Below, piece after piece: positions 6,702-64,000 of a DNA stretch of 64,000 nt. Origin of the DNA: Porphyra umbilicalis (taxonomy: Eukaryota; Rhodophyta; Bangiophyceae; Bangiales; Bangiaceae). Every line of letters starts with the position of its first letter. Position 1 is the stretch's first letter. The notes beneath the pieces were generated by a model. That model was not told the DNA's origin, did no database searches, and saw only the letters and a list, made by a program, of their open reading frames with translations. The position numbers and the translations under genes are program-made. Where the stretch lies: NCBI GenBank assembly GCA_002049455.2, contig KV918873.1, forward strand, positions 156,344-220,343, given 5' to 3'.

Positions 6702-9227
6702 CTAGACACCTCGCGAGCGCTTTGCCGGCCGTCCACGTCCACGAGAGCCGTCAGCGGCGCCGTCGCCGCCGCCGCCGCCGCCACCATTGTGCGTGTCGTC
6801 GCTGGCGACACCGTCGGCGTTGTTTGCGCCGACACTCGGCGCTTTGCCGTCGAGCGCGACGGTGGCCGCCAAAAGGCTCGCCCACAGGTCCCCCCCGTCT
6901 GGACTGGCATGCACAGGAGGGCGCGGAGACCTCAAACACCTGCTCCATTGCGTCGACGCTCCACTCCGCCGACTGAGTCAGCAACGCCTCCAACCGTGCG
7001 TGTACGGCCTTCATGGCGACTGGCAGGCGCACATCTAGCCCTCGCTTCACGGCAAACGTTTTGAGGCACGCCTTGACAATGTGGGCCCAGTCGTGGCGGC
7101 GCTGCGCATCCGTGGCGCATTTGAAAGAAAAGGTGGAGGGGAAACTGGCCAGCAACGCAGGACGGGCGCGCCCACCCGTTGTGGCCAGAACCAGGAGCGG
7201 CGTGCCGACGGGCACGTCCCGGAGCGCCGCCTCAAAAACGCACGAGTCCGTAGAGTCCCCCGCCGACGGGTCGTCCACCCACAAGTCTGCGTGGGGGATG
7301 AAGAGCACGGCCGGCGCGGCGCACGTGGCGGCGTAAATCGTCTCTGCCAGCCGCTGCTGGGGGGTGCGCGCCCCAGCCCCACGTGTGAGCGACACAAAGC
7401 CCTCTTCATAGATCGGCATTGGTGTCAGCGCATGCAGAACCGCACCCGCGACGGTGCCTGGGCACATCCCCTCGTCCCCGTCAATGAGCAGTCGCTGGGG
7501 CAAAACGGGAAGGTCCTTGGCCAAGGCTCTGAACCCAGTGTCCGCGCCGCACCCAACCGCCGCTGCGGCGGCGCAACGCCCAGGCACCGACGGGAGCCGC
7601 TGGACGGGAAAGTGGCGAACGAGAAACGCCCGCACGTCGGCCAGCGTCGATGCCAGCAGCAGCGCCACGCGTTTCGGGAGCGGCCGCCGCAGGGGCGGCG
7701 GCGCCCCGAGCCGCGTGGACTGTTCGCGCCGATAGAGGGTGTCCTGCCAGTCGAAACGCACGTCGGCAGTGTCGTCGGCAGCCTCCTCAATCGAGTCGGG
7801 CCACCCCGGAAACCGCCGCGCGAGGACGGTCGTGGCGGCGTTGTCACAGAGGCCAGCGAGCTCGGCCCCCGACCAGTCGTCGGTGTGGGCGGCGATCCAG
7901 GCCGCGTCCGCGGCGTCCATGTGCACGCCCTCTGCGGCGGCCGACACGCGCATGATAGCCGCGCGGCCGGCCGCGTCGGGGAGCCCAAAGCGCAGCTCCG
8001 TATCAAACCGGCCGGGCCGACGAAACGCGCGATCGATCAGGTCGACACGGTTCGTCGCCGCCACAACCAACACCCGGTCCCGCCGCACCAACCCGTCCAG
8101 GAGTGCCAACAGCGTGGCGATCATCGGGATCGACTCTTGGCGCCCGTCGGTGCGCGCGGCCGCGATTGCGTCAAACTCGTCGAAAAAATGATGGACGGCT
8201 GCGCGGCGGTGGCGGCGTCAATCACACGCCGGACGCGCTGTTCTCCCTCACCAATAAACTTAGAGAGGAGCTCGCCGCCATTGACGACCCACAGGGGCAC
8301 CGTGGTGCCCCCATTGAGCGCCTTGGCACGGCCCGCCAGCAGGCGGACGGCCAGCGTCTTGCCCGTCCCGGGGGGGCCCGTCAACAAAACCCCATTCTTG
8401 GTCGAGGCCCCCGCCGCCCGTCACGCGTCGGGCATTAGGAGGACAGCGAGGGCGACTTTAAGGGCGTCCACGTTGGCCGCTTGGCCGGCAAGCGCGTCCT
8501 ATCTCGGCGTATCGTCGGGCAGTTTCAGCAACTCGGGCGGTGGCGTCGTCGATCGCGGTGAGTCGGGGGACGCGCGGCGCCCGTTGTCGGGCGTGCGAGT
8601 GCGGTGGCGCTGCCGTCGCTGCGGCGGTGGCTGCTCCTCCTCCTGGTGCTGTGGACGCGGAGGGAGCGGGCCAGCCAACAACGAACAAAAGGAACCATAA
8701 TACATCGCCGAAATGTTCTGGGCGCCGCCCGTGGCAGGTGATCGGGGGGGGGGGTGGTGGGCGGGGCCTCGGGCGGGGCCTCGGTGCGTCTGCCACCCCG
8801 AGCGCCGGCACTTCGGCCGGCAGTGGGGGGGGTGCAGGCGGGCGTGCCCCGGCAGACGACAGCGGGAGGCGCCCAAGGACGGCCCGCCGGCCCCCCCTGC
8901 CCCGAGCGGGCGCGGCTGCGCCGCCCACGCCGCGCGGACCAGCGTCGGGGGGGGGGGCACCCCAGCGCCCGCGCGGTCGCCACCGGCACCGTCATCTCGC
9001 GTGGCACGCGCCTTGCCGACCGTGTTGACAAGCGAGGAGAGCCGCCGCCACGTCACGAGGGGGGGGGGGGGGGGGGGGGGGGGCGCCCGACCGACGCGGC
9101 CACGGGGGCAGTGGGGGTGGGGTGGGAGGAGGGTGTCGCTGCCTGGACCACCGCGCTGTCCGTCTTTTGCCCCGACCCACAGCGCCAACAAATCATTTAT
9201 AGGGGCTCGCGCCCGCGGGACGACCAA
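6702..9227 (-). pseudogene. ATAD2/Yta7-like double AAA ATPase, copy 2, frame-disrupted
   Basis: Paralogue of the 3369-5862 gene with the same domain order and orientation, so the pair arose by tandem duplication. AAA domain 1 (about 8460-7830) has an intact Walker A GPPGTGKT, sensor ATNRVD and RRPGRFD. The degenerate second AAA domain (about 7540-7130) has GDEGMCPG and LFIPHADLW, typical of ATAD2. The C-terminus in the best frame ends with RGRGRPAKRSR, an AT-hook-like basic motif. Damage in the AAA frame: TAG at about 8502, TGA at about 8422, and a one-base loss in an A6 run (8185-8190) that falls in the codons just before the Walker B acidic pair; another shift lies near 6900. The N-terminal part is Pro/Arg-rich and contains a G25 tract. 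A TATA-like CTATAAATG (9194-9202) lies inside the first ATG reading frame, so the true start is unclear. A pseudogene is more likely than for copy 1. Confidence 0.75.
9059..9083. repeat. G25 homopolymer
   Basis: Twenty-five G on the plus strand, poly-Pro codons on the minus strand, in the N-terminal part of ATAD2-like copy 2. Confidence 0.9.
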
Positions 9228-10599: not shown

Positions 10600-11099
10600 C
10601 ATGCGGGAGACGCGTATCCTAGTGCTACCTCAAATGCGCGTCAACAGGGGGTGGTGTGGGCAGCGTTTGCAAGGGCGGCGCCTCGCCCGTGCGAGTGGCT
10701 CGGCCGCTCGCAATGACAAAAGACGCACACACACGAGCAGCAAGGCGCTGGGGGGTCATGAGCACCCCTTGTGTGGGGTTGACACAATGGGTGGCAGTCA
10801 TGGAGGAGTCGACTTCCAGTGCCTCTGTCTGTCCGCCCACAATTCCATTTGTATTTGTTACCTGTCCAAGGCGGGCAAAGCTTATCGGAATATCCGGTGA
10901 GAACAGAGGCACGGTCATCTGGGAGCAAAAGTACAAAGACTTAGATCTACTACCGAGTTGTTGCTGCTGGTGCAGGTCCCACTGGGCCGCCTACAGTGAG
11001 CGCGGCGAGGGTGTCGTCAGACGCCACATTCGCCCGGTGCCATTCGACTGAACAGCGGGCCCGCCGGATCCCATCGTATGCTTGACATACAGTACGCAG
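10600..11099. repeat. Long direct repeat, copy 1 (~500 bp)
   Basis: Matches 17343-17830 in the same orientation, about nine bases in ten by eye, with small indels. It contains one copy of the CGGATAATCCG-type block (palindrome here CGGAATATCCG, 10886-10896). On the minus strand both copies keep short open frames, one with a Cys/His-containing end (ARCSVEWHRANVA here, ARCSVAWHRANVA in copy 2). The two copies bracket the ParB-methyltransferase-SET gene. Confidence 0.85.
10862..10944 (-). promoter_or_regulatory. Conserved palindrome block, copy 1
   Basis: Minus-strand reading contains CCAGATGACCGTG, GTTCTCACCGGAT and the imperfect dyad CGGATATTCCG (10886-10896). It is part of the direct repeat. 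The same block occurs at 16190-16262, 17590-17664 and 18287-18352. Confidence 0.6.
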
Positions 11100-11723
11100 C
11101 GGGTCGGCGGCGTGGTCGAAATTGCCACAACAAATAACAGCTGGCGCGTGTACAATACCCTGTTGTTCGTTTTTTGTGTGAGATGCACAAAAATCTCGCA
11201 CACGGTCACAGTACGGCCCCGAATTGCCCAAATGGGGCGCGTGTAACAAGGTAAGGCTTTTGTGTGCGGAGACACCGTTCCGGGACGAAGATTCACAAAC
11301 GGGGGGGGGTGCGTGATTGGAACGGCGTGCGTTCGTGGGTGGCTTGAGCTCTCCAGGTGTGGTTCCAGGGTGTAGAGCGGCATCGGGCAAAGGTGTAGGC
11401 GTCTCAGCCGACTCGAAGCTGTTCCCCACAGCTCCACCTCTGTTGTTTGAGGATTGCAATGATTCTACCGCCACAATGTTTTGTCGAGGATCAGCCATAC
11501 ATATGATCCTCACACTGCTGTGGCCTACTCCTCCCACCATTCACACGCCGCGTACTGGCTGTACGGTCAGTCCGAGTGACCATAATCGTCCAATCAAGGC
11601 TGTTGTATGCTGAAACGTGAGCGGCCGACGCGGCCGTCCAAGCTATTTTGCAACGTACACCCACACCGACGACACGCACGCACAACACACACACAGTCTA
11701 TCTCTCCCTTCCACGGGCCCGCG
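11100..11723. other. Spacer downstream of the methyltransferase gene
   Basis: The minus strand is open from 11540 to 10953 (196 codons) without a recognisable family. It contains scattered Cys residues and runs into the direct repeat. No other feature was seen. Confidence 0.35.
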
Positions 11724-14700
11724 TCACGCCGATTGGGGCGTCGTACCAGAGGACGCTGCGAGCATCGCGTTGACTCGACTCCAATCAAAGTCGAACCCAT
11801 AGACGAGAAACAGCTCCTCCCCAAAGGCGACGTCCGCCGTGGCCACCACCGTCAACAGGTCGGGGTGCACCATGTCGGACGGGCGCTTGAGGGGCCGCAA
11901 GCGCAGGCGCACGTTGGGCTTGAGGGAGAGCGTCGAGCCGTCCGCCTGAAAGTTGACCTTCTCGGCGCCACTAACCGCCCCATAGTGGTTGATGTAGCCA
12001 CACGCGCAGCCGACAGACGGGACGAGCCAAAACTTGGGCGGCGGCGGAGCACCGCACCGCGCCTTGAGCGGCACCAAGTGCGCATTGCGGGTAAACGTCT
12101 GGGGGGTGATGCAGGCCGTCGCCCTCATCGTGCCATACGGTCTGTGGGGGTTGTCTTGCAACGTCTTCAGACGGAGGTCCTTAAAGACGAGCCCCCCCCA
12201 CATGGACCCGACCTGGTCGCCGACGCGCAAGCCGCCGGGGTGGCTGACAAAGACGCCCAAGCCACCAAAGGGGACGCCCGACGAGGCGACGCGCACCCGA
12301 CATGCGGTCGCGTCCGCGGCTCGCACAGTGGCCGTGTCGGCACACTCGAAAACCGCCCGCATCTGCTGCGGCCAGTCGTGCACCGGCTGGACGAGCAGGT
12401 CGTCGAGGCCCTTGACGGTAAAGAAGTCGTTTGGCACATGGTGGCCAGGGAGACGAGAAAGTGGACGATGTGTGTCGGAACCCGGGTGTGTGCCGACTCG
12501 CCGGCTTTCAGGGTCAATGCCGACGACAGCCACTTGGTCGACGACGAGGGCTCAGGGCGACGCGCCGCGAGCTCGGCGGCCACCCTTTCCACAGCGTCGA
12601 GCAGCTGCGGTGTCACCCCACCTGCACCTTGGTTCGCCTTGGCCCAGTCGACAAACGCAAAGTAGGTGCGACGACGCGCGGCCTTGACGACCACGTCGTC
12701 GACGTCGCAGCCGTAAAACTGCGTCGCGTCTGCACACACGCGACCGCCGTCGTGCCCGTCCCCATAAACAGGTCGAGGACCGCGTCACCCGCGTGAGAAA
12801 AGCGGCACACCAGCTCCCGCACGCACCCCACCGACTTTTGCTCGGGGCGCAACCACTTGCCGTCCTCGTTGTACACAATCTCCAACGGGCCAGGCGGAGC
12901 GACGTTGGTGATCGCGTTGCAGTGGCCGGGCAGGGGAGACGAGGTCTGGTTGTGATTCTTAAAGCTCACCCTGCGATGCGTCCCGGTGCCGCCGCCCGTA
13001 CGCGTCGCGTGGAGGGCCTTGTCCACCCAATTGGCCAGCGCGTGCTGGAGCGACCACCCCACCGCCGTTGGACGACACCGCGACCATGGAGCACGGGTCG
13101 ACGAGCCACTCGGGCTCGCCCCGACCCTTCAGCGCCGTCGCCGTCCGTAGGTTGGACAGGATGTCAAACCACTTGGAAACCTGCAAGTCGGAACACTGGA
13201 TGATGAGCTGGCCGCCGTGACGCACCATCCCAGTCACGTCGCGCGCCACTGCCAGCATGTCCGCTCCGACAGCCGGTCATGGGCAGAGTTGGGTTCCCCG
13301 CGCTTCAGCCGTGTGCCGTAGGGCGGGTCGAGGTACGCCAGTTGAATCTTGTCTTGAGGTTGCCGTGGGGAACTGCCAAAAGTTGCACGATACCATCTGG
13401 ACACGCGCCGCGAGGGCCCCCTCAATGAGACGCACGTCGGCGACGCTGACGGCAGAGAATGGTCGGCCGTCGGCCACGGCATCGAGCATGTCCGAAGAGG
13501 GCGCCCCATCGGCCAACTTGGCGGGGGCCTCGTCGTCCAGCCACAGTTCCCGCAGGGAGGGCCAAGGACGGGCACCACGCCACCAACGAGAGCCGACTCG
13601 TGGGGTAGAAAGGAGCAGACGCTCAACTTGCCCCTGTCCGTTTGCCTCGACAGCGGCTCGTACGTCGCGGACCACAACTCTGGGGACCCCAACACGTCGC
13701 TCATGTGCCGCGCGTACTGCGCCGCCGCCTTGCGCAGCAGCCGATCGTCGTCGGGGGAGTTGGTAAAGGTCGCCAGCGCCACGGGGTCGACCACGTCGGG
13801 GTCCATGGACGTTGGCAGACCATGGAAGAGGCGGTACCGCTGGCACCGCGGGGAGAAGCCATCCGAAGGATGCAACAAGGGCTTCAACTTGCACTCCTCG
13901 GCGCACCACACCAAGTACGGCCAAAACATCGTCATGGCGTCTGCGTAGCCACACTTGGCCGCGACAACGTCCCAGGACCGGTTGACGATCATGGCGGCGT
14001 ACGACACGCGCACAGTCCGCATGTCGCGCTCGACAACAGCGCCGGGGGTTTTCGACGCTGCCGCACCGGCCACTGACTTTCCCTTGGCAGACGCCGACAG
14101 CCGCTTTTGCTTTTTGGCCGACAACGTCTGACCCGTACCACGCCCCCGGGTGGTACCGTCGCCGTCGTCGTCGCCGTCGGGGTGCGCCTTCCCTCGCGCA
14201 CGTCTGCCATGAGCTGCAAAACGAGCCACACGCGCTCGTCCATGGTGCTCAGGGGCCGATGACCGGGTCGAGCGGGTCGTCCAACAGCTCCGGCACCGCG
14301 CCCCCTGCCGCCGACCCCGCGCGGCGGCAGACGCAGGTGCGCCCCGATCACGAGGCACCAAACCATCGCCTTGATCGTCCTCATCCGCGTCCATGTCCGC
14401 GGCCTTGCGCTTAGCACCCTTTCCGGTCCCCGGCATCGGCAACAGATCCTCGCTCTGCTTCTTGGCTGCAGCGCGTCGCGCCTTGTCGATACCCGCCTGC
14501 CCCTCATCCGGCCGCGTCTGGATGTAGCTGACCATCACCTGCCACCGACGGAGGGCGCCCGCAACGGCGGCCGTGTGTGCTGCACCCTTTTCCGTCCGTC
14601 GAGGCGTCGCGGCGAGTGCGGCAAGGCGGTCCCGCATAGCCATCTCACGACGCCCGCTGCTCACCTTGGGCCACGCAAAGCCGCTCAAGTCCCGCCACTG

Positions 14701-15928
14701 CAGGGCCACCGGATATCGACAAACCAAAGCGTCAACCCGGACGCGCGGCGTCCGGTCCGGCGGTCGGTCGCGGACGATCACACCCAACCCGCCGACGGGC
14801 GACACGAACCCAGGGGCGGGCACAGGGGTGGCCACCCGAGAGCTGGGACCGCCCCCGGTGGCCGCCGACGCGTCTGTCGGAGCGACCGGCGCCTGCTCCG
14901 CCGGCCCGTCAGCGTCGACCAGCACATCCTGCAGCTGCTCCAAACGGTGGCTCATGAAGAGCAGGAGCTCCCACAAGCGCGTGTCCACGGGGGCGCCCCC
15001 CGCCATCCGCGCACGGTGCAGGTTCCACGTCACCCAGGCCTTGCACCACATGAGGACGGCGTACCACAAGTACGTGCGCTCCTGACTCATCTTGGCGAGC
15101 AGAGCACTGCTTGACGTAGACGACGGTGCCATGGCCGCCACCCTGGTCTGAGTTCAACAATCGACACTTTTGGCCAGAAGGCAGCTCGCGCAGCGTCGCT
15201 CCGGAGCGCTGCGAGTCGCTCGTTCGCCACCTCGTCTCGCACGACGACCGCCGCAAGGACCACGTCCATGGCGGCCATGGCCTTGACATTCTCGGCCACC
15301 CACTGCAAACCAATGGCTTCAACGATGCGGCTGCCGTCGCGCGGGTTCGCAGCAGACGCTTGGGAGACGGCGTCCTTTGCCAAGAGCATCGGGAGGCGGT
15401 GGAACCCGTCGGCAAACGTGCCGTTGGTAGCGCCGCGGAGGGCCGCCTCGAAGCGGGCGTGCCCCGACACGAGCACCACGGCGTCCTCCCCTCCACCTTG
15501 CGGCCAGCGCATGGCGCTTGGGCGTACTCCTTGAGGGAGGTCACGCCCACGTCGACCACGTGCTCGTCGTGTGCAGGCCGTATGTCCGTCCAGTAGCGCA
15601 CCATGGAGAGGTGCACCCAACAGGTGGCGTTGGGCGACTGCTCTCGCCAGTTGGCAATGGGAACACCCTCAACGTCCGTCACCAGCGCCTCGTCCTGTGC
15701 ACGGGCTGGGCGCACAACCGCAGCCCGAGGGCCGTCGGGCGGCACCGTCGGCGCCCCATGAGGGACCCCCGTCGGCGAACTGTCGCGGGCGCCACCGTCT
15801 CGGCGGGTGGCCCGGCCGCCGGACGCGTGGCGTGGGCATGGCACGCGCGGGCATAGGGGGGGGGGGGGGGGGGGGGGGGGCTGAGAACCGTCGAGCACCA
15901 CGCCGACGCAAACTTCGCTCCGCGGCAC
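11724..15928 (-). pseudogene. ParB-like / amino-DNA-methyltransferase / SET fusion, frame-disrupted
   Basis: Read from 15928 down. A ParB/Srx-like N-terminus (about 15600-15300) contains VVLVSGHARFEAAL. A helical and linker region with basic stretches (GKGAKRKA, KKQKRL) follows. Next comes an N6-adenine/N4-cytosine methyltransferase domain with catalytic DPPYG (13315-13329), a ~180-residue spacer and the SAM-binding motif DLFMGTGTTA (about 12745-12774). This order (motif IV before motif I) is that of beta-group bacterial enzymes. The C-terminus (about 12300-11730) is SET-like: GLGVFVS, CGYINHYG, then VATADVAFGEELFLVYG before W. A single protein could thus mark DNA and histones. No one frame covers it: the pieces change frame near 15490, 15140, 14260, 13560, 13360, 13255, 13040, 12740 and 12430. 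The joins preserve protein-like sequence, so short introns, sequencing indels or pseudogenisation are all possible. A TATA-like box lies 93 bp upstream of the first ATG. Confidence 0.7.
15856..15880. repeat. G25 homopolymer
   Basis: Twenty-five G on the plus strand, encoding poly-Pro near the N-terminus of the ParB-methyltransferase-SET gene. Confidence 0.9.
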
Positions 15929-16030: not shown

Positions 16031-16189
16031 TGGAAAACCACGCCCAGACCCAGTGTGGGACGACTCGGCCCGTTTGTGGGCGGAACACAGCCCGACGGTG
16101 GCTCGAACGCCGCGCGCGGGAGACGACGTGCGGGCGACCCGACAGATACGGGTTGCAACGGCGTCCCCATGCAAAAAGTCCGCGTAATT

Positions 16190-16262
16190 GTCACCAAGCG
16201 ACGCCGCCGGAACGCTCTCGGATTATCCGGTGAGAACAGCGTCACGGTCATCTGGCAAAACA
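16190..16262 (-). promoter_or_regulatory. Conserved palindrome block, copy 3
   Basis: Minus-strand sense reads CCAGATGACCGTG, GTTCTCACCGGATAATCCG, then AGAGCGTTC and a GCTTGGTGA word. The dyad CGGAT-A-ATCCG (16219-16229) is perfect. It lies 262 bp upstream of the ParB-methyltransferase-SET start. It matches the block at 18287-18352 over ~65 bp (about 57 identical), with the same orientation relative to the downstream gene. Confidence 0.65.
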
Positions 16263-17342
16263 AGTAGATCAAATTACATTTGGTGAACAACGCCTGTACC
16301 GTGGAGGGATTCCCACGTGTCTGCCGTGCGCGACAACCCGACGACGGTACGACCGTCCGCACGTGCCTCTGGGGATCGCGCTACGGTCCCCGCACGTCAC
16401 TGGTACGGGGTGGTATTCTGTATCTTGACGAGGTGCTTTCGGGGCTGTGACGTACGCAACACATCATCACTGGGCTGGAAAGTCGACCCGCACGGCATGA
16501 ATGACTCCCAGTGCCGTTACGACCACTTATTTGTGTCTCTCCCCAGGACAAACACCCTGACGCGCTGCGGTGCATCAAAGCGCCTCTCCGCTGCTGCGAC
16601 GCCTGGACCGTGTGCGCACGCAAATGGACCCAAGATCGGACGTCAGTGAGGCCGATTCTGGACACAATTGCTCTCCCAGTTATATAGCAGCGTGCTATAC
16701 AACGAAAGGTGCATCCCACGCATTATAACCTCTGGCGGCGACGCATGCTCAGGCCCAGCAGAGAGGGACACCAACGCCCCCGATGCCGAATGTCCCACTA
16801 TAGAAAGAACCACCAACTTGCAAGCGTTCAGTCCATGCGCGCCGAGGCAAATTTTGCACTGCATGTTGGAGCTTTGTCGTGCGTGCAAAAAGAAGAGGGT
16901 GCCGGTTTTGTGGTACTTTTTGCGCCCTCGTTGACGCCATGCTTCTACGGTGGCCATGGGAGGCGTGCTCGACCAGGGAAAGTTGTAAGCATGTACATGA
17001 CGCATGCAGCCAGCCGGCTTGATCCGCCCTATCAATTTGCGTGGACAGTATTTATCAGCTGGATCTTTGTTGCAACGGCTAGTGTTGAGCTGGAAACCAG
17101 ACGCAGACCTTCACCAGTGTCACGCAACCCACGCCATTCGGGCGCTTCTCGCACTCACAGGCCCTTTAATTCGGTGTACCGCCAGAACACCCATGTCTGT
17201 CATCTGGGAGACTTTGGCTCCTGGAGGTCCATTTCCGACGCCCTCACATCGTTTTTGGGACAGGTGTTAGTGCATGGGGTACGGTATACCTTTAGTGTCG
17301 ATATAACCGGATATTGACTGTACCAGCTCGATGCCAGGGCGT
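16263..17342. other. Intergenic stretch between divergent ParB-type genes
   Basis: Only short open frames without family signatures are present. GC content is lower than in the flanking genes. A GGTATACC word with ACGGTATACC context (about 17281) resembles the ends of the hairpin repeats at 3169 and 28969. Confidence 0.4.
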
Positions 17343-17830
17343 CATGCGGGAGACGCTTCTCCTACCTCAAATGCGCGTTAACAGGGGGTGGTGTGGGCAG
17401 CGTATGCAAGGGCGGCGCCTCGCCCGTGCGAGTGGCTCGGCCGCTCGCAATGACAAAAGACGCACACACACGAGCAGCAAGGCGCTGGGGGGTCATGAGC
17501 ACCCCTTGTTTGGGGTTGACACAATGGGTGGCAGTCATGGAGGAGTCGATTTCCAGTGCCTCCGTCCGCCCACAACTCCATGTATTTGTGACCTGGTCAC
17601 GGCGTGGGAAGCTGATCGGATTATCCGGTGAGAACTGAGGCACGGTCATCTGGGAGCAAAAGTACAAAGACTTAGATCTACCGCCGAGTTGTCGCTGCTG
17701 GTACAGGTCCCACTGGGGCGCCTACAGTGAGCGCGCCGAGGGCGTCGGCAATAGCCACATTCGCTCGGTGCCATGCGACTGAACAGCGGGCCCACTGAGT
17801 CCCATCGTCTGGCTCACAGACGGTACACAG
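17343..17830. repeat. Long direct repeat, copy 2 (~490 bp)
   Basis: Same orientation as 10600-11099, with a few short deletions. It carries a perfect copy of the dyad CGGATTATCCG at 17617-17627. The encoded minus-strand peptide around 17880-17680 has a Cys-rich pattern (CPVC, CPLCTVC) followed by the conserved ARCSVAWHRANVA. Confidence 0.85.
17590..17664 (-). promoter_or_regulatory. Conserved palindrome block, copy 2
   Basis: Same block as at 10862 and 16190, with the dyad at 17617-17627. It is located within the second direct repeat. Confidence 0.6.
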
Positions 17831-18286
17831 AGGGCAGCCACCCAGGCGCCCCGTCTTTCCCACGCACACGGGGCACTGAGCACACACGCGCAGCGTGGGT
17901 GGGGGGGGTCTCCCCAGAAGAAACCACCGCCGTGCCGCTCCCGCCCTTCACATTGCCTGGCAGCACACACAATCTCCGGCGAGAATCGGCGCGCCGGTCA
18001 AATCAGACCAGCAAGCAATCACAGCCACACACAGACACCCCCCCGCACGCTAGCGGCGCTGCGATCATCCGGCACGGTGCGGCACTCTTGCAGAGCCACA
18101 GCCCGTTCCACACACACGACCAAAGAAGCACGCGGTTGGGCCATTGGTGGCCGACACGGTCAGATGTGCGCGAGGATGTGCGGGCTGCCGCACTTTCCAT
18201 ATGACGCCCAGATCCCCGATCAGAATTTCACAATGTTGCTTTCTTTACGTCGCTTTCATATTGTACTTGTATTCTGTATTTATATC
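17831..18286. other. Spacer, no gene seen
   Basis: Low-complexity CA-rich words (CACACACAC) and short open frames only. No motif recognised. Confidence 0.4.
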
Positions 18287-18352
18287 CCAGATGACCGTGA
18301 TGTTGTTCTCACCGGATAATCCGAGAGCGTTCTGCCCGCGTTGCTTGGTGAT
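18287..18352 (+). promoter_or_regulatory. Conserved palindrome block, copy 4
   Basis: Plus strand reads CCAGATGACCGTG, GTTCTCACCGGATAATCCG, AGAGCGTTC and GCTTGGTGA. The perfect dyad is at 18313-18323. It lies 388 bp upstream of the ParB-like gene and is oriented towards it, mirroring the copy upstream of the divergent fusion gene. Confidence 0.65.
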
Positions 18353-18637
18353 GAATACGTGGATTTGATTGTCGTGCCATGCGTTGTGCAACGCAGGGAC
18401 CCGCTGCGCGCTCTGATTGGTCAATCTCCGACTCGTTTCAACCGTCGAGGCGGTGGTGACACATGCACAAGGGGGCCGATAAAGGCGGCAACGTCGGACC
18501 CGCCGGTCATCAGCCGACAGGCCCGCACTGTCCTGTCCACACCACCCCCGGCGTGCACGCAGTTGCCTGAGGCGTGCGTACGCACCGCTGCTCTCTCTCC
18601 CCAGGGACAGACCCCAGCGCTCACGCGAGGCGCCCTT

Positions 18638-24896: not shown

Positions 24897-26971
24897 ATGC
24901 CGCCTCCACCGCTACCTGCACCCCCCGCTCTTCTCCCCGCTCCCCCTCCCGATGCCCCACCTTCCCCCCCCCAGCCCATGGCATCGTTGGTGTGGCGCTT
25001 CATCACCTTGCATCCCTGTGGCCAGCGCATGTCCTGCCAGGACCGCCATTGCACCTACAAGAACGTGCGGCGCAACGCAACGCGGGCCCGCCGACACCTC
25101 CACACCTGCACGGGGGCGTTGGCGCTCTACCCCGACCTCGCCCTGCCAATGTGTTGGCCATGTGGAGGACCAATTTTGCTGCAGTCGTGCTTCAAGCGGG
25201 GCTGCCTTTTGGCCTCTTTGACACCGCGGCGTGGCGGTCGGTTTTTTTGCTGATTTCGGGCGGCCGGTTTGATGGACCGAGGGGTCGCCGCGCCGTTGGC
25301 GGGGCGCTGCTAACGTCAGCGGTTGCGGCCGTAGACAGCAGCCTGGCGCGCTTCTTAGAGGGGTACCACTCTGTGTCCCTCTCCATTGACGGGATGACTG
25401 ACGCGAGCGGGGGTGGGGTCTACAACGTCGTCATCTACACCCCGCGCCCCTTTTTGGTGGCTACGTTTCGCATGGGATCGGAACCCAGCACAGCGGCCAA
25501 TCTCTTGACCCGCCTGCAAGGAGCCCTTCAAGCCCCCCTCTTGTCTAGCTTCGCCACGTCGGCCACCACTGAGTTGGCGGCCGGGGCGTCGGTCCTTTCC
25601 TTGTTCGGTCACCGTCGGGTCCTTGCACTCGTAACGGACTCGCCAACGACGATGGTGGCCTTGCGGGGTATGGCTGTCGCCAGCGGCTCGTTCCTGTTTG
25701 CTTTTGGGTGCGGGGCTCACGCCGCCAACCTCGTGGCGCAAGACGCCGCACGGGTGCCCATTTGCGCTCAGGCGTTGCGTGCAGCGCTGTTGATCACTGT
25801 GTTTTTTACGCGATCGACGCGCGCACACGCGCTCCTGCGGGCCGTGTGGGCGCGCCTGCCGGCCGCGGGTCGACGCGTGGGGTCCGTTAAGACCAACTCC
25901 CGCACACGATGGGCGAAGGAGGGGGCCACCATTGCAGCTGTTGGGTCAAATCTTCCGGCTTTGGACCATACTCTGCTCGAGAACACCCATTCCCCTTCGC
26001 CGTTTGACGTGCCGACGCCCGTGGCCGACGCCATCCGGTCCCCCGCGGTCCGGTCGTCGATTGATGGGTGCGTGCCGTTTCTTCTATTTCTGGCTCGTCT
26101 GGTGGCCCACATGGAAGGTGACGCCACCCCCCTGTCGTCCTACGTGGCTATTTTTGCGTGCCTCCGTGCATCGCTGGCCACTCATTTCACGGGCCTATCT
26201 GTGGCAGCGCGGCAGGCGATGCAGTCTTCAATCGAGCGTCGCTACACGTCGTTTTCAGACCCACTGGTAGCCCTCGCGTTTTGGCTGGACCCTTTTTGGG
26301 CCTCGGTGCGGACGCGGCTGTCGTGCCTCCTTTGGGGCACCAAGTCGCTCGCAACCTTACGCGATGCGGCCGTGGTCTTCCTATGCCGACCCGACAATGC
26401 TGCAAGGGCTTTGGTCCTCGCCGAGTTGGCAAGCTTTGAAGACACGGAGCAAGGCCCTGCTGCTTTGGAGCAATCCCGTGATTTACACCCTGTGATGTGG
26501 TGGCGCCTTTGGGGATGGCGCTTCCCCACTTTGCAGCCGCTGGCTGTGCGCCTACTTGCCATCCCCCCTTCTGCGGCGGGGGGCGAGCGCATCTTCAAGG
26601 CGTTAAAGACTGTGCTCTCCACGCGCCGTAGCCGCCTCGCCCCGGAGCGCGTCGACAACCAAACACGATGACGGTTCAACACGCGGCAGCTGGAACGCGC
26701 AGACGTGCTGGCGGCGTTTCGCCGCCCCTCGGTTGAGTTTGAGTTGCGGGCGCTGCTCGCCGGGGAGACGGGGGCGGGCGCGCCGGCGGCCGCTCCCCCC
26801 GCCGCGGCGGAGCCGGATTCGGACGGCGATGGGGGAGGGTCTTCTGGCGAAGACGTATCAGATGACGAGGGCGGTGACACTGGTGGCGGTCATCCGTCAG
26901 ATGACGCCACTGTTGACCATTTGTTGGGAACGGCGGGCGTAGACGCTGCGGTAGACTTTTTGTTGAGCTAG
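24897..26971 (+). pseudogene. hAT-type transposase with BED finger, one stop and one frameshift
   Basis: hAT transposases cut and paste DNA elements. In the first frame (ATG 24897 or, better, 24978) there is a BED-type zinc finger with CGQRMSC-QDRHC and a RRHLHTC end. The frame changes near 25150 and the catalytic part follows: SLSIDGMTD (DUF659-like), a CGAHAANLV segment with the conserved Cys-His, and the C-terminal dimerisation motif LAIPPSAAGGERIFKALK. A TGA at 26669-26671 interrupts this motif; the same frame then continues for 100 codons through RFNTRQL and an acidic, Ser/Gly-rich tail to the stop at 26969-26971. With one frameshift and one stop the length (~690 residues) is normal for the family. 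Terminal inverted repeats and an 8-bp target duplication were not found. It is probably a recently inactivated copy. Confidence 0.8.
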
Positions 26972-31745: not shown

Positions 31746-33662
31746 ATGGACGCTGCAATGACTGTGAGTGGCTGGGAGGAGGACGAGGGCCTAAACGATG
31801 ACGTCACCACCGCGGTGGTAGTCGCCGCTCACGTGGCCACTCTTCTGGATTCGCGACGGCGGGCTCTCGCGGCCGCGCAAGTGCACAGGCCGCGGTACCG
31901 GGGCTCCGTGCCCGGTCGGTTGGCCAATCGGCCGCGAAATTTTGAGCTTGGCCTGCAGTGCATCCTTCGCGACTATTTTGGCGTCGACGGCCTTCCCCCG
32001 GTTTTCGGTCGACAACAGTTTGAGCGACGATTTCGCGTGCCGTTGCCGGTCTTCCTGCGGATCTACCATGCTATCAAGGACCGCCCGTTTTGGGCGCAAC
32101 GTGTCAACGCAACCGGGCAGCCGCAGGCCCACCCGCTTCAAAAGCTGGTGGCCGCGTTCCGCGTGCTGGCGTACGGAGAATCGTACGACCGCGCGGACGA
32201 GTACGTGCGCTTGTCCAGATCTACAATCGCGCGCGCGGTCAAGCTCTTCACCGAGTTCATGGTCGACGAGCTCGGTCCACACTACCTGCGGCCGCCCACG
32301 CCCCCTGAGATTGAGAAGATCCTTGCCCGCAATGATGAGCGTGGGTTGCCTGGCTGTCTCGGTTCTCTTGATTGCTCTCACTGGGAGTGGTCCTCGTGCC
32401 CTAAGGCGCGGGCGGGGACGTACCAGGGCCGGGATGGGCGGCGATCGATTGTGATTGAGGCCATCTGCGATGAGGACACGTGGATCTACCACATCTTCGC
32501 GGGGAGTCCGGGAAGCCTCAATGATATTAACGTCCTGTACCAATCGCCTATGTATATGGATGTCATCACGGGAAAGTGGCCGCCCCGGGAGTTTTCGTTC
32601 ACTGTGAACGGTAATACCCGAACTTTGCTGTATTACCTGGTGGACGGAATCTATCCCCGCTTCGCGTTCTTCGTTGCCCCTTTCCCCAACCCGCAGACTC
32701 TCGAGCAGCGCACGTTCAACCGTCTTCAAGAGGCTCTGCGGAAGGACGTAGAGCGTCTTTTCGGCATCCTGACGGCGCGATTCCACGTCATGTTGCACCC
32801 TTGCCGAATGTGGACGGTCCCCCAGATGGTGCTAACGACGCAGACTATTGCCATTCTTCACAGTATGGTAATCGAGGCACGCAGGGACGGTTTCCTGTCG
32901 CGCTCGCGCTCGTCCCTCTATGGGGCGGGCGCTGCCGGCGCGGGGGCTGATCTGGGCGGGGGTGGCGCGGTCGCCGGTGCCGCTGACGGTGCGGGTGTCG
33001 GCGGCGCGGCGGGAGACGATGGGGCGGGCGCGGCTGGCGCGGCTGCTGGCGCCGCTGACGGCGCAGGAGCCGGCGGCGGCGGCGCGGGAGGCGCTGGGGC
33101 GGACGGGGTGGACGGGGATGGCGCGGGGGCTGGCGCCGCCGATGGCGCAGGAGCTGGAGGCGGCGCCGCGGGAGGCGCTGGGGCCGGCGGCGGTGGCGCG
33201 GGAGGCGCTGGGGCGGACGGGGCGGACGGGGATGGCGCGGGGTCTGGCGCCGCCGATGGGGCAGGCGGCGCCGCGGGCGCGGCTGCCGCGGGCGCCGCCG
33301 ACGGCGCTGGGGCCGGCGGTGGCGCTGCGGGAGACGCCGGGGCGGGCGCGAACATCGGCGGCGGTGCGCCGCGAGTGGCCGGGGAGGGAGGTCACGGGGG
33401 GGGGGGTGGCGGGGCAGGAGGTTCTGGGGCTGGAGGCGCAGGTGCTGCTGCAGGGGGTGGGCTGGGCGACCTAGACGGTACTCGTGGTGTTCCACCCCCA
33501 GCTCTGGGGGCCGCTGCGGTGGCCCCCATGAGCGAGTTCATGCGGATTCTGATGGCCACTGGCGAGGCCAAGTCCCGGGAAGAGCATGCGGCGCTGCGCA
33601 AGGATCTGTGCGCGCACGTGTTTTCGCAGCGTGGTGAGTTCTTGGCGCCTTATCTTGATTGA
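31746..33662 (+). CDS. Harbinger-type transposase (plant transposon protein family)
   Basis: 638 codons, open throughout. PIF/Harbinger transposases are DDE enzymes that insert at three-base targets. Residues ~60-400 are the family core: an HTH-like N-part (LQKLVAAFRVLAYGESYDRADEYVRLSRST), first catalytic Asp in LGSLDCSHWEW, the hallmark SPGSLNDINVL with the second Asp, YYLVDGIYP, and the final acidic residue in the RKDVERLFGIL helix. This matches the family named Plant transposon protein (PF04827). Residues ~400-590 are an unusual Gly/Ala/Asp-rich tail coded by imperfect repeats, followed by a conserved-looking end (MSEFMRILMATGEA, REEHAALRKDLCAHVF). Such proteins need a Myb/SANT partner; the converging gene at 36924-38702 is a candidate. 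It looks intact and could be active. Terminal repeats were not identified. Confidence 0.85.
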   Translation: MDAAMTVSGWEEDEGLNDDVTTAVVVAAHVATLLDSRRRALAAAQVHRPRYRGSVPGRLANRPRNFELGLQCILRDYFGVDGLPPVFGRQQFERRFRVPLPVFLRIYHAIKDRPFWAQRVNATGQPQAHPLQKLVAAFRVLAYGESYDRADEYVRLSRSTIARAVKLFTEFMVDELGPHYLRPPTPPEIEKILARNDERGLPGCLGSLDCSHWEWSSCPKARAGTYQGRDGRRSIVIEAICDEDTWIYHIFAGSPGSLNDINVLYQSPMYMDVITGKWPPREFSFTVNGNTRTLLYYLVDGIYPRFAFFVAPFPNPQTLEQRTFNRLQEALRKDVERLFGILTARFHVMLHPCRMWTVPQMVLTTQTIAILHSMVIEARRDGFLSRSRSSLYGAGAAGAGADLGGGGAVAGAADGAGVGGAAGDDGAGAAGAAAGAADGAGAGGGGAGGAGADGVDGDGAGAGAADGAGAGGGAAGGAGAGGGGAGGAGADGADGDGAGSGAADGAGGAAGAAAAGAADGAGAGGGAAGDAGAGANIGGGAPRVAGEGGHGGGGGGAGGSGAGGAGAAAGGGLGDLDGTRGVPPPALGAAAVAPMSEFMRILMATGEAKSREEHAALRKDLCAHVFSQRGEFLAPYLD

Positions 33663-38702: not shown

Positions 38703-38739
38703 CGTGGTCGACGACCTCGCCGGCCGCAGTCTTGCAGAC

Positions 38740-40785: not shown

Positions 40786-41040
40786 CTCTGCGGGCTAGGC
40801 TGCCGTTGGTCGAGCGGCGCGCCGCCGCCCCACCTCGGCGAGCTAGACGGCCGTCGGTCTTGCGGCGCGCCGCCGGTCCACCGCGGCGGGCTGGACGGCC
40901 GTCGGTCCAGCGGCGCGCCGCCGCCCCACCTCGGCGGGCTCGGCTGCCGATGGTCGAGCGGCGCGCCGCCGCCCCACCTCGGCGGGCTCGGCGGCCGTCG
41001 GTCGAGCGGCGCGCCGCCGCCCCACCTCGGAGGGCTCGGT
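39320..41040. repeat. 48-bp minisatellite built on GGCGGCGCGCCGCC palindromes
   Basis: Roughly 27-35 units of 48 bp. Each holds a 14-bp perfect palindrome GGCGGCGCGCCGCC followed by a CTCG-ACGTCGGC-type spacer and CTCGTCGGCGGGTTGGG. Two alternating unit types (CTCGACGTCGGCACG and CTCTCGCCGCCGGCG) occur in the first 500 bp, showing higher-order duplication. Units decay towards 41 kb. Confidence 0.92.
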
Positions 41041-60056: not shown

Positions 60057-60902
60057 ATGGACGGCGGCGCTGCCGGCATGGGCGGCATCAAGATCGACAA
60101 GTTGACGGAGACGAACTTCCCTGAGTGGCGTCAGCGCATTGAGATGGTCCTCGCGCTGCGCGACCTGGACAATATGCTTGACGCAGACGGCAAGCCGACG
60201 GTCGCGGAGACCCGCGAGTTGGCGGTGTGGAAGCGTCGAGACACGAAGGCGAGCGCCATCATCGGGCTCACCCTTGGGTCTGAGCAGCTCGAGCACGTGT
60301 CGGGCCGCAAGACGACGTCGGAAATGTGGTCGACGCTGCAAGGTGTCTTCCAGCGCAAGATTTTGATGAACAAGATGAAGGCGCGACGCGAGTTCTACAC
60401 CGTCGAAATGTCCGTCGGCGAGGGCATGCTGGGCTACATCAACCGCGTGCGCAACCTCGGCGAGAACATCAAAGCCATGGGCGGCGAGGTGACGGAGATG
60501 GACGTTGCCATGAGCGTCCTCAACCGGCTGACGTCAAAGTACAAGAACCTGCTGGTGGCTCTCGACGCCAAGGGCGAGGACGAGCTGAGCCTCGACTTTG
60601 TCAAGAGCCGCTTGCTTCAGGAGGAGCGGCAGCAGGCGGACAAGTCACCGGCGACGAAGCGCATTGGCGACATGGCACTCGTCGGCGCCAACTATCGAGG
60701 TCAAGGCCGCCGTGCTGACCTCTCCAAGATCGAGTGCTACTACTGCCATACGTTTGGGCACATCTCACGCGATTGCCCAGAGCTCAAGGCCAAGAAGCAG
60801 AGACAGGACAAGGTGGCCGCGATTGCGGCTGACGATGGTAGCGACAGCGACGACGCCATCTGTCTGGTGGGCAATGCAGCTGGCACCGATGACATCTCCT
60901 AG
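60057..60902 (+). CDS. Copia Gag protein
   Basis: 281 residues. It coats the element RNA and forms the particle. The N-part has the copia Gag core (TETNFPEWRQRIEMVLALRD, then ASAIIGLTLGSEQLEHV, MWSTLQGVFQRK and LNRLTSKYKNLLVAL). A CCHC zinc knuckle (CYYCHTFGHISRDC) lies at ~225-238, followed by a Lys-rich and an acidic tail. The start lies 160 bp after the LTR. It ends at a TAG (60900-60902) after which the same frame continues directly into protease. Copia elements normally have one Gag-Pol frame, so this is either a read-through stop or a mutation. Confidence 0.85.
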   Translation: MDGGAAGMGGIKIDKLTETNFPEWRQRIEMVLALRDLDNMLDADGKPTVAETRELAVWKRRDTKASAIIGLTLGSEQLEHVSGRKTTSEMWSTLQGVFQRKILMNKMKARREFYTVEMSVGEGMLGYINRVRNLGENIKAMGGEVTEMDVAMSVLNRLTSKYKNLLVALDAKGEDELSLDFVKSRLLQEERQQADKSPATKRIGDMALVGANYRGQGRRADLSKIECYYCHTFGHISRDCPELKAKKQRQDKVAAIAADDGSDSDDAICLVGNAAGTDDIS

Positions 60903-63327
60903 TCGTGGCTTGTGGACTCTGCGGCGTCTGCACACATGTGCTGGATGCGCGGGTGCTTCGACGCCTACCATACGACCACGGGACGGAGCGTCACGATGGG
61001 TGACAAGGGGTCCGTAGCCACGGCGGGCGTCGAAACGGTTGTGCTCAATGTCATCGTTCACGGCAAGACGCGCAAGATCAAATTGGAGAAGGTACTCCAT
61101 GTTCCTACAATGGGCTTCAACCTCATGTCGGTCGGCATGATGGAGGAGCGTGGGGTGGAAGTGTCATTCAAGGGCGGTAAGACGATCATCAAGATGAACG
61201 AGAAGACTGCTGCGTGCGGCACTCGTAGGAACGGGCTCTACCACCTGAACATGGCCCCACTGTCGGATACTGCTGCGGTGGCCTCTCTTCAGCTCTGGCA
61301 TGAGCACCTTGGGCACGTCAACGTGGCTGGCGTTAAGCGGATGATCAAGAACAAGGACATCAATGGACTCAAGTGCTCTTCCATGGCGGTCAAGGACGTC
61401 TGCGCGCCGTGCGTGTATAGGAAGGCGGCTATTACGCCTATGCCTAGTGCAGGAGGAGTTCGAGTGACCAAGCGCCTGCAGCTCGTGCAGTTGGACCTGG
61501 GCGGGCCAATGTCGGATCCGTCGCGTGGCGGTGCGCTCTACTTCGGCACCTTCACCGACGACTTCTCCCGCTGGACCGACGTGGTCTTCCTGCAGAAGAA
61601 GAGCGATCTGCTCTCTGAGTACAAGAAGTGGCTGACTAAGGCCCAGCTGCACACGGGAACCAAGATCAAGATCCTGCGATCCGACGATGGCGGCGAGTAC
61701 GTGTCGAACGCACTCAAGGCTCTTCACGATGAGAACGGCACGACGCACCAGACCACGGTGCCCGACACGCCGCAGCAGAACGGAGTTGCTGAGCGGCTCA
61801 ACCGAGTTCTCGTGGAGATGGCTCGCACCATGATGCGACACAAGAACGTCGATCAGGATCTTTTGGGCGGATGCCATCAATACGGCGGTGTACATCAAGA
61901 ACCGCGTAACGAGCCGGTTGCATCCCGTCGGCAAGACGACTTTTGAGCTGTGGACCGGGAATAAGCCCAATGTAAGCCACTTGCGGGTGTTTGGGTCGAC
62001 ATGCTGGGTGGTGCTGCACAAGAGTCACATCGACGGCAAGTTTGGCGACAAGGCGGCGAAGGGCGTCTTCTTAGGCTATCCCGACGGCAGCAAGGCGTAC
62101 AAGGTCATCCTCGACGACGGCAAAGTCGTCAAGGCGCGAAGCATTGTGTTCGCCGAGACGAACGTAAGCGAGGTCACAGAAGTTGCGGCGGAGCTTCCCG
62201 AAGACGAAGTTGTCGAAGTCGAGACGGGCTTGCGTTCTGCAAGCGACGGCGAAGACGTAGATGTTGACAATGACGACAAGGACGACAAGCAAGACGATGG
62301 ATCTGACAAATCCGCGGACGACAATTAAGGTAGTGGCGGCTCTCAAGACACGCTGCGTCGGAGCGGCAGAGCGCGGCGACCACCTGTTGAGTACTGACGC
62401 CCGGTGAGCCTGGTTGCGCACGAGGCGCCCACGACGTACGTGCAAGCCGTCCAAGGGCAAGAATTGGCTAAGTGGAAGATTGCTTTGGACGAGGAGATGG
62501 AAGCCATCCGCAAGAACAAGACTTGGCGCTCGACGGATCGCCCGGCCAGTCGATGCGTGCTGAAGGGCAAGTGGGTTTACAAGGTCAAGAACGAAGTTGA
62601 CAAGAACGGGAACAACGCGACGCGGCACAAGGCGCGCCTGTGCTTCATGAGGAACCGGCAGATCAAGGGGCTCGACTTCAACGAGTCATTCGCGCCGGTG
62701 TCCAAGTTCACCACCATTCGATGCATCCTGGCGATGACGGCGGGGAATGGGTGGGAGCTACATCAGATGGACGTCAAGACGGCATTCCTCAACATCGACC
62801 TTGACGAGGAGGTCTACATGGAGCAGCCAGACGGCTATGTCGATCCGACGTATCCTGACAAGGTGTGTCGTCTCCTCCAAGCGCTGTATGGGCTGAAGCA
62901 AGCCCCCAAGATGTGGTACGCCAAGCTCGACGACTTCCTCAAGTCGCAAGGGTTTGACAACATTGACCCGGATGCATGCCTCTACCTCCTTATGGATGAC
63001 GGCGAAATCATCATCGTCCTGGTGTACGTCGACGATCTTCTTTTTGTGGCATCAAGCCTGGCGGCGATCTACAAGATTAAGGACGCTCTGCACAAGCGTT
63101 TTGAAATGAAGGACCTGGGCGAGGCGAAGGTCATCCTCGGGCTAGAGATAAGACGTGAGAAGGCGTTGGGCACCCTCAAGCTGTCGCAGGGCAAGTACGC
63201 GGGGCAAGTGCTGGAGAAGTTCGGGATGGCGGAGTGCAACCCGATCGGAACGCCGCTGGAGGTGGGCCTGCAGCTGGTCAAGGCCAACGAGAGCGACGAC
63301 GCGCTGCCCTACCGCGAAGCCGTCTGT
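60903..63327 (+). pseudogene. Copia Pol: protease, integrase, truncated reverse transcriptase
   Basis: Continues the Gag frame: protease active site WLVDSAASAHM; integrase zinc domain with LWHEHLGH and CAPC; catalytic core with LDLGGPM, SDDGGEY and NGVAERLNR. A one-base shift near 61860 is followed in the next frame by the integrase C-part (NKPNVSHLRVFGS). This frame then has TAA at 62326-62328 and TGA at 62395-62397. Reverse transcriptase follows with ARLCFM, GLDFNESFAPV, QMDVKTAFLN, ALYGLKQAPKMWY and the catalytic YVDDLL. It stops abruptly after LPYREAV at about 63327, so RNase H and the 3' LTR are missing. The element is dead: four coding lesions plus truncation. Confidence 0.88.
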
Positions 63328-64000
63328 GACAACACGCTCAGCCCACCCCACCCAGTTGGGGGGAGGGCGAGCCAAACCGTGTCGCCGGGTAGTCCTGTCG
63401 GGGAGTACCCGCCCCGGAAGGAAACCCCGAAGAGCACACACGCACGGCGTCGACCGGGGGAAGGCGCCCCGAGCGACAAACACGAGTTGTGTGACCGGAA
63501 GTTTACTTGCCCGCGTCGAAGGCCTCGAGGCGACACTCACGCCTCGCCCTCTTATCCCGTCCGTTCCCCTCGGACCCTCAGAAAACCCTCCTCAGACACC
63601 CTCAAAGGACCGTCGGAAGACCCTCCTCAGATACCCTCAAAGGACCCTCGGAAAACCCTCCTCAGATACCCTCAAAGGACCCTCGGAAAACCCTCCCCTC
63701 CGGGCCCATGGGGCCAGTCTCAGCGGAGGACGGCCGAAGCTTCGAATACCGCCTTGAGAAGAGGCGGGGGAAGGGTGCTACGTGACACCCTCGCGGTGCC
63801 CCGGAGTCAGGGGCACAAAGTAACGTAAGTCGATAATCCAAGTGGGGTTTACACAAAATTAGGCCCTTAAGTAGGGGCCCGCTCGAGGGGGTTATGAGTC
63901 CCAGGGAAGTATTGGGATTGCGGTTGTGGTTGGTGAGCCACGAGATGAGCACAAGTGGGTCGCCAACGGAACAATTTGAATTATGCGTTAGTGGGGCATA
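63328..64000. mobile_element. Foreign sequence inserted into the copia element
   Basis: Begins TGTGACAACACG exactly where the reverse transcriptase breaks off. A TGTGACA start is typical of LTRs, so this may be the left LTR of a second, nested retroelement that continues past the window. No coding motif is seen. It contains the 35-bp tandem repeat at 63572-63694. A deletion joining unrelated DNA is the alternative. Confidence 0.4.
63572..63694. repeat. 35-bp tandem repeat, ~3.5 copies
   Basis: Units start at 63572, 63607, 63642 and 63677 with GGACCCTCGGAAAACCCTCC; each ends ATACCCTCAAA. Confidence 0.92.

Follow-up and report, generated by a model that had tools for sequence, protein, structure and literature searches.

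Does a eukaryotic genome encode, in one polypeptide, a domain that would mark DNA and another that would mark the proteins around it? The question is raised by a locus of the red alga Porphyra umbilicalis, contained in a stretch of 64,000 nucleotides (nt) from contig KV918873.1 (GenBank assembly GCA_002049455.2, forward-strand positions 156,344 to 220,343). We refer to this whole stretch as the window and number positions from its first letter. An earlier reading made from the letters of the window alone (the sequence-only reading) had proposed that one gene fuses a ParB-like domain, an amino-DNA-methyltransferase and a SET domain, with the caution that the parts lie in different frames. The analysis reported here bears this out in part: the methyltransferase stands, the single gene and the SET domain are likely, and the ParB domain is suggested. 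We favor, with moderate confidence, a single minus-strand eukaryotic gene of ~1,350 residues in which a captured phage- or bacterium-type amino-DNA-methyltransferase is joined to a SET domain.

One coding track and its DNA methyltransferase

Third-position GC content (GC3) and a Viterbi model of codon usage trace a single minus-strand coding track of 4,073 nt that runs from ~15,799 to 11,727 and is closed by one final stop at 11,724-11,726. Because the training set of the Viterbi model is partly made up of this gene's own segments, codon usage was also learnt from the transposons and the AAA ATPase gene of the window only (2,753 codons). With this independent table all eight segments tested ranked first among the six frames, and the same outcome was obtained with the AAA gene alone as the training set (457 codons). 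The segments had been picked beforehand as free of stops, which aids the frame rank but not the consistency of codon usage along the gene, and the stretch 13,265-13,381, which holds DPPYG, lies outside the eight. Within the ~1,350 codons of the chosen segments there is no in-frame stop other than the final one, and third-position bias is kept. The strings quoted in the sequence-only reading are all found on the minus strand and in the order it gave, namely VVLVSGHARFEAAL (~15,480), DPPYG (~13,330), DLFMGTGTTA (~12,770), GYINH (~11,995), and GEELFLVYG (~11,820), and the parts that bear them do sit in different frames. The continuous coding signal and the one codon usage nevertheless support one gene that spans all of these parts, which we consider likely. 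A run of 25 C lies at 15,856-15,880, beyond the provisional 5' end of the track.

The methyltransferase is the firmest element of the locus. The Pfam model PF01555 (N6_N4_Mtase) matches the raw open reading frame (ORF) at 12,613-13,062 with 34.3 bits (e value 3e-8) and the translation read through the frame changes with 48.9 bits (1e-12), both above the curated cut-off of 26.7 bits, and this ORF gave the sole match among the 10 ORFs scanned. The PHROGs family phrog_67 matches residues 66-294 (2.9e-13). In an alignment with six enzymes from a phage collection, to which it is 22-29% identical, the protein shows DPPY, then RPEQKSV, and then DLFMGTGTT, which is the beta-type order that had been claimed. 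DPPY in motif IV would favor adenine N6 over cytosine N4 as the target, and the best NCBIfam model is that of the adenine enzyme CcrM (1.4e-6, far below its cut-off). From these two signs an adenine N6 target would be more likely than a cytosine N4 target.

Relatives of the enzyme were sought in collections of phages, viral contigs, and prokaryotes only, a scope that counts as a weakness of the reading favored here. Identity to phage records is 23-41% among the best 20 of 629; in a second phage listing it reaches 48.9% over short stretches among the best 20 of 748, and three further records outside those 20 were counted at 60-80%. An alignment-based search of viral contigs with the phage enzymes gave at least 378 methyltransferase relatives among 600 candidate stretches. 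The 80 viral-contig relatives that were retained are ORFs of 112-405 residues, and a simple pattern for a motif like Box II of ParB was found in none of them. Single-protein scans of viral contigs with each part of the gene, and of genome contigs with the methyltransferase, confirmed no relative, and the search for paralogs within the window returned a single weak piece (E 0.055). We infer that the core of the enzyme derives from a phage- or bacterium-type ParB-methyltransferase.

Frame changes along the track

The Viterbi model places six frame changes in the track, and manual reading finds eight, the extra two lying near 13,560 and 13,365. In at least five of the eight, G or C runs that are three bases long or longer lie a few bases away; given that 16% of the bases of this region fall in runs of three or more, we make no statistical claim on this association. 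The change near 12,735 is the most informative: it separates motif I from the strand that follows in the methyltransferase, a place that the aligned relatives cross without a gap. It can, therefore, mark neither a border between genes nor an intron and has to be a lesion or an error. A similar change is seen in the unrelated AAA ATPase gene of the window, a relative of VCP, Yta7, and Abo1, at a T run inside the Walker B motif (assigned by eye; the Viterbi model agrees on the change), which favors indel errors in the assembly. The frame changes are, thus, probably small indels in the assembly. Introns were rejected as their source on the basis of coding signal and alignment: the signal is free of gaps, and the relatives have neither extra nor missing residues near 12,735.

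The alternative that survives best is a decaying copy, in which the fusion once existed and has since been inactivated by real frameshifts. The density of frame changes speaks for decay and against our reading, because six changes in 4,073 nt compare with 18 in ~31.8 kb of 22 other coding-like segments, some of which are antisense shadows, a ratio of ~2.6, and transposons and repeats are plentiful in this area. However, the chosen segments have kept both their freedom from internal stops and their third-position bias and codon usage, the changes fit one-base shifts (other indels of the same phase would also do), and the AAA gene shows a similar change. On balance we consider a pseudogene unlikely, though it is the rival to be taken most seriously, and continue with an intact gene interrupted by assembly errors.

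The two ends of the predicted protein

The C-terminal segment probably forms a divergent SET domain, a claim of the sequence-only reading for which targeted tests with our own profiles gave specific support below the usual thresholds. The comparison set comprised 80 prokaryotic and 38 viral-contig loci fetched with a hand-written consensus of SET motifs; 71 of these 118 loci were entered by hand, and 66 were kept in the profile after five short or interrupted ones had been dropped. In hhalign the segment scored 22.6 against these 66 domains and exceeded all 60 of its shuffles (maximum 18.4), whereas for each of six off-target combinations of a segment with a profile the score was reached by 30-48 of 60 shuffles of its own. 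A score over three SET motifs was 5.4, the highest among 264 ORFs (next -7.5) and equaled by 3 of 5,000 shuffles. With shorter motif cores, GLGVFVS (p 0.02), ACGYINHY (p 0.03), and TVVATADVAFGEELFLVYG (0 of 2,000 shuffles) each had their best score in the segment where they were expected, and the three followed one another in order. A MAFFT alignment placed 11 of 18 conserved SET residues, which none of 60 shuffles reached (maximum 10), and eight other segments placed between 3 and 8. Finally, the stretch ahead of GLGVFV fits the start of SET domains (p 0.0056), and the start CRVRVASSGVPFGGLGVFV resembles IKVASSPIHGLGVFA of a viral locus, L191. This last test used residues that had played no part in the fetching and took the best of three offsets for real and shuffled sequences alike; it drew on 51 sequences with a usable upstream stretch, reduced to 42 by removal of near-duplicates. 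The segment may share with the SET lysine methyltransferases (PF00856) a GxG start, INH, PN, and GEEL followed by Tyr, which score above shuffles in this order but far below real SET domains in the three-motif score, and it differs from them in the spacing from NH to PN, which is 22 residues here and 3 in the prokaryotic SET rows shown in the MAFFT alignment.

The N-terminal region was proposed to be ParB-like, and here the evidence points to one motif. Box II with its conserved Arg is recognized as LVSGHARFEAA, the best score in the segment (p 0.0005, 2,000 shuffles). ParB profiles built from 19 or more stretches ranked the read-through translation (E 0.30-0.45) and the raw ORF (E 0.83-1.0) first and second among 1,146 sequences, that is, the 1,145 ORFs of the window and the read-through; the first, five-sequence profile had ranked them third (E 5.3) and fourth (E 11). 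The hhalign score of 18.1 lies above all 60 shuffles (maximum 17.4), with a probability of 2.2%. We regard the presence of a ParB/Srx-like domain as evenly balanced because it rests on one box.

Several results count against these two assignments. Neither the SET family (PF00856 included) nor the ParB family (PF02195 included) was reported by Pfam, NCBIfam, or PHROGs. These scans had limits of E 1 (first Pfam scan) and E 10 (second Pfam scan, NCBIfam, and PHROGs), with filters that drop most matches above ~0.1. The sequence-only reading had called for a profile search for ParB/Srx, N6_N4_Mtase, and SET and had held that a lack of SET or ParB similarity would overturn the fusion; in the curated libraries N6_N4_Mtase was matched and the other two were not, and it is in the targeted tests that similarity to both appears. 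For ParB, Box I (p 0.98) and the helix that follows it (p 0.14 and 0.73) are not recognized in the segment. For SET, plain hmmsearch with our own profile gave E 6.7, rank 3 among the 1,145 window ORFs, through the GEEL motif alone. The hhalign probability was 10.8%, and shuffles of the methyltransferase part reached up to 23.1 against the same SET profile. In the three-motif score eight real SET domains, themselves members of the profile, range from 57 to 117, far above the segment, two of whose motif placements were unexpected. The shorter cores were cut after that score was known, the longer form of motif I is best elsewhere in the segment, and the longer form of motif III gives p 0.07. Part of the 18 MAFFT columns stems from the peptides used in fetching. 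In the start test a second place in the segment scores 5.7, slightly above the 5.3 of the proposed start, which is fitted with a two-residue insertion.

Taken at their strongest, these points would mean that the C-terminus is not a SET domain at all, that GEEL and INH are there by chance, and that the protein is a ParB-methyltransferase or a plain methyltransferase with some other C-terminal domain, such as one for target recognition. A single-sequence AlphaFold prediction of the segment (238 aa) had a predicted local distance difference test (pLDDT) score of 31.4, which fits such a protein as well. A model of 194 aa built with the help of 23 SET rows rose to 66.5, and of its 76 matches in the PDB at E 0.001 the 50 that were listed all bear titles of SET or PR domains, but this model is circular and neither result was counted. 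A PDB sequence search with the segment returned no match at E 10, and a query for a SET domain of the INDYR type found nothing. Nevertheless, four tests with real SET sequences beat their shuffles, including one whose stretch was unused in choosing the sequences, and we consider a C-terminus of another kind improbable.

Retaining the SET-like domain, one may still ask whether it belongs to a separate gene, the parts being neighbors that merely stand in a row. The different frames of the parts would suit this arrangement, but the coding signal runs unbroken from the methyltransferase into the SET-like segment with no intergenic gap, and one frame change falls inside the methyltransferase domain itself, so that we consider separate genes quite improbable. 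Bacterial or phage contamination, or the join of a foreign contig, as the source of the methyltransferase is very improbable: its relatives are phage-type enzymes, in collections that held phages, viral contigs, and prokaryotes only, but the codon usage of the eight segments matches that of the transposons and the AAA gene of the window, and the single-protein scans of viral and genome contigs confirmed no close relative. The segments of the gene and its neighbors are collected in table 1.

Table 1. Segments of the putative fusion gene and neighboring features of the window
Feature	Position	Strand	Basis and remarks
Whole coding track of putative fusion gene	11727..15799	-	~1,350 codons; codon Viterbi model, GC3 frame plot, independent codon-usage test
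N-terminal segment, frame 0; first half of proposed ParB-like region	15491..15679	-	GC3, codon usage; Box I and helix unrecognized
Frame 2 segment with LVSGHARFEAAL, ParB Box II-like motif	15144..15488	-	Box II score; own ParB profiles
Frame 1 segment; low-complexity basic linker and middle region of no recognized kind	13560..15141	-	GC3, codon usage
Frame 0 segment running into methyltransferase	13382..13558	-	GC3, codon usage; missed by Viterbi model
Methyltransferase, first part, frames 1 then 0; motif IV DPPYGT and next strands	13061..13356	-	Alignment with six phage-collection enzymes; 13,061-13,264 codon-tested
Methyltransferase, second part, frame 1; RPEQKSV (HPTQKPV-like), motif I DLFMGTGTT	12736..13056	-	PF01555 3e-8; alignment
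Methyltransferase, end, frame 0; FYGCDVDDVV onward	12464..12733	-	Alignment; nothing missing or extra relative to relatives across change near 12,735
Frame 2 segment with putative SET-like domain; CRVRVASSGVPFGGLGVFVS, ACGYINHY, KPNV, TVVATADVAFGEELFLVYG	11727..12440	-	Motif, alignment, and shuffle tests; stop 11724-11726
AAA ATPase gene (VCP, Yta7, Abo1 relative)	6707..8417	-	AAA ATPase at 6,751-8,124; frame change at T run
hAT transposase ORF	24992..26671		
PIF/Harbinger "Plant_tran" ORF	31746..33662		
copia element	60057..63828	+	gag, integrase, and reverse transcriptase across several ORFs

Genomic setting, known relatives, and possible role

The window is eukaryotic, as had been presumed: it carries copia, hAT, and PIF/Harbinger transposons and the Abo1/Yta7/VCP-like AAA gene. 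No tRNA genes were found in it. The gene is flanked by a 0.5-kb direct repeat (10,600-11,103 and 17,343-17,834, 89% alike). A long terminal repeat element around the gene was considered and rejected, as the two copies lose their similarity gradually at both ends. A short piece related to this repeat, GGATTATCCGGTGAGAAC...CACGGTCATCTGG, also occurs at ~16,218-16,266 and, inverted, at ~18,285-18,366. Just upstream of the gene, at 16,176-18,366, inverted arms of 80 nt that are 86% complementary stand 2.0 kb apart, possibly a nonautonomous DNA transposon. Farther away, a tandem array of 36 copies of a 48-bp unit (39,303-41,038) lies in a stretch that has long ORFs on both strands, and a long minus-strand ORF at 36,924-39,167 has weak NAM-associated similarity below the cut-off of that model.

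The nearest known architecture for the first parts of the gene is found in phages. PMC12704722 describes fusions of ParB with N6_N4 methyltransferases as enriched in phages and names sulfiredoxin as the form found most often in eukaryotes; ParB folds are presented there as clamps on DNA that depend on nucleotides, or as other NTP modules. Multidomain proteins of phages that contain ParB and methylases are also described in PMC5512222. M.PhiCh1-I of the Natrialba phage PhiCh1, which is among the phage relatives, shows the order proposed here, with ParB_N (PF02195, 2.3e-7, just over its cut-off) preceding a beta-order enzyme that carries DPPYG, HPTQKP, and GSGST. Two further ParB-methyltransferase loci, L252 (GHQRVKA) and L253 (GHGRLQA), share the GH.R..A form of Box II with GHARFEA of the Porphyra gene. 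Unlike these fusions from phages and archaeal viruses, the algal gene has its two parts ~700 residues apart, matches ParB below threshold, and carries in addition a basic linker, a middle region, and, at the C-terminus, a SET-like part.

Among eukaryotic enzymes the closest parallel is N4CMT of bdelloid rotifers, in which, according to PMC8885841, a permuted enzyme of the PF01555 family, bacterial in origin, is joined to a C-terminal chromodomain and writes N4-methylcytosine (4mC). The partner there is a reader of histone marks, and cooperation of N4CMT with separate SETDB1 proteins is proposed, whereas the partner in Porphyra would be a putative writer that shares the chain. The MT-A70/AMT1 enzymes, which write N6-methyladenine (6mA), have eukaryotic DNA amino-methylation in common with the present gene but belong to a different methyltransferase family, and the terms N6_N4 and ParB each occur zero times in the main text of PMC12695648. 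No paper on a fusion of SET with an amino-methyltransferase was found among the literature matches listed, which come mostly from outside subscription journals; a 2016 survey of eukaryotic adenine methylation by Iyer and colleagues may contain such an architecture.

From N- to C-terminus the predicted protein would, thus, consist of an uncertain ParB/Srx-like region, a basic linker, an unassigned middle region, the beta-order methyltransferase, and the divergent SET-like domain. To judge from its family, the methyltransferase would flip a base and methylate an exocyclic amino group of nuclear DNA, and a ParB-like clamp could hold the enzyme on DNA or move it along. The linker carries KGAKRKA and AKKQKRLSASAKGK, which look like nuclear localization signals by eye, and such stretches (KRKA, KKQKR) would suit nuclear import; in the middle region no Pfam family scored above its cut-off. 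A SET domain would methylate lysine on a histone or another nearby protein, and the marks on DNA and protein would be set together. That one protein would write both marks is an inference from the families of its domains. In its fullest form the idea is a functional dual writer: a captured methyltransferase, guided still by a ParB-like clamp and sharing its chain with a SET lysine methyltransferase, would set both marks at the same place. We regard this as a tentative proposal, somewhat less probable than not.

DNA and histone marks usually reinforce each other by way of separate readers and writers. If the reading favored here is true, the two catalytic domains in one protein would couple these marks physically, and a DNA-modifying enzyme of bacteria or phages would have been rebuilt as a chromatin regulator. 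Beside N4CMT of rotifers, 6mA or 4mC in this lineage would then become directly testable.

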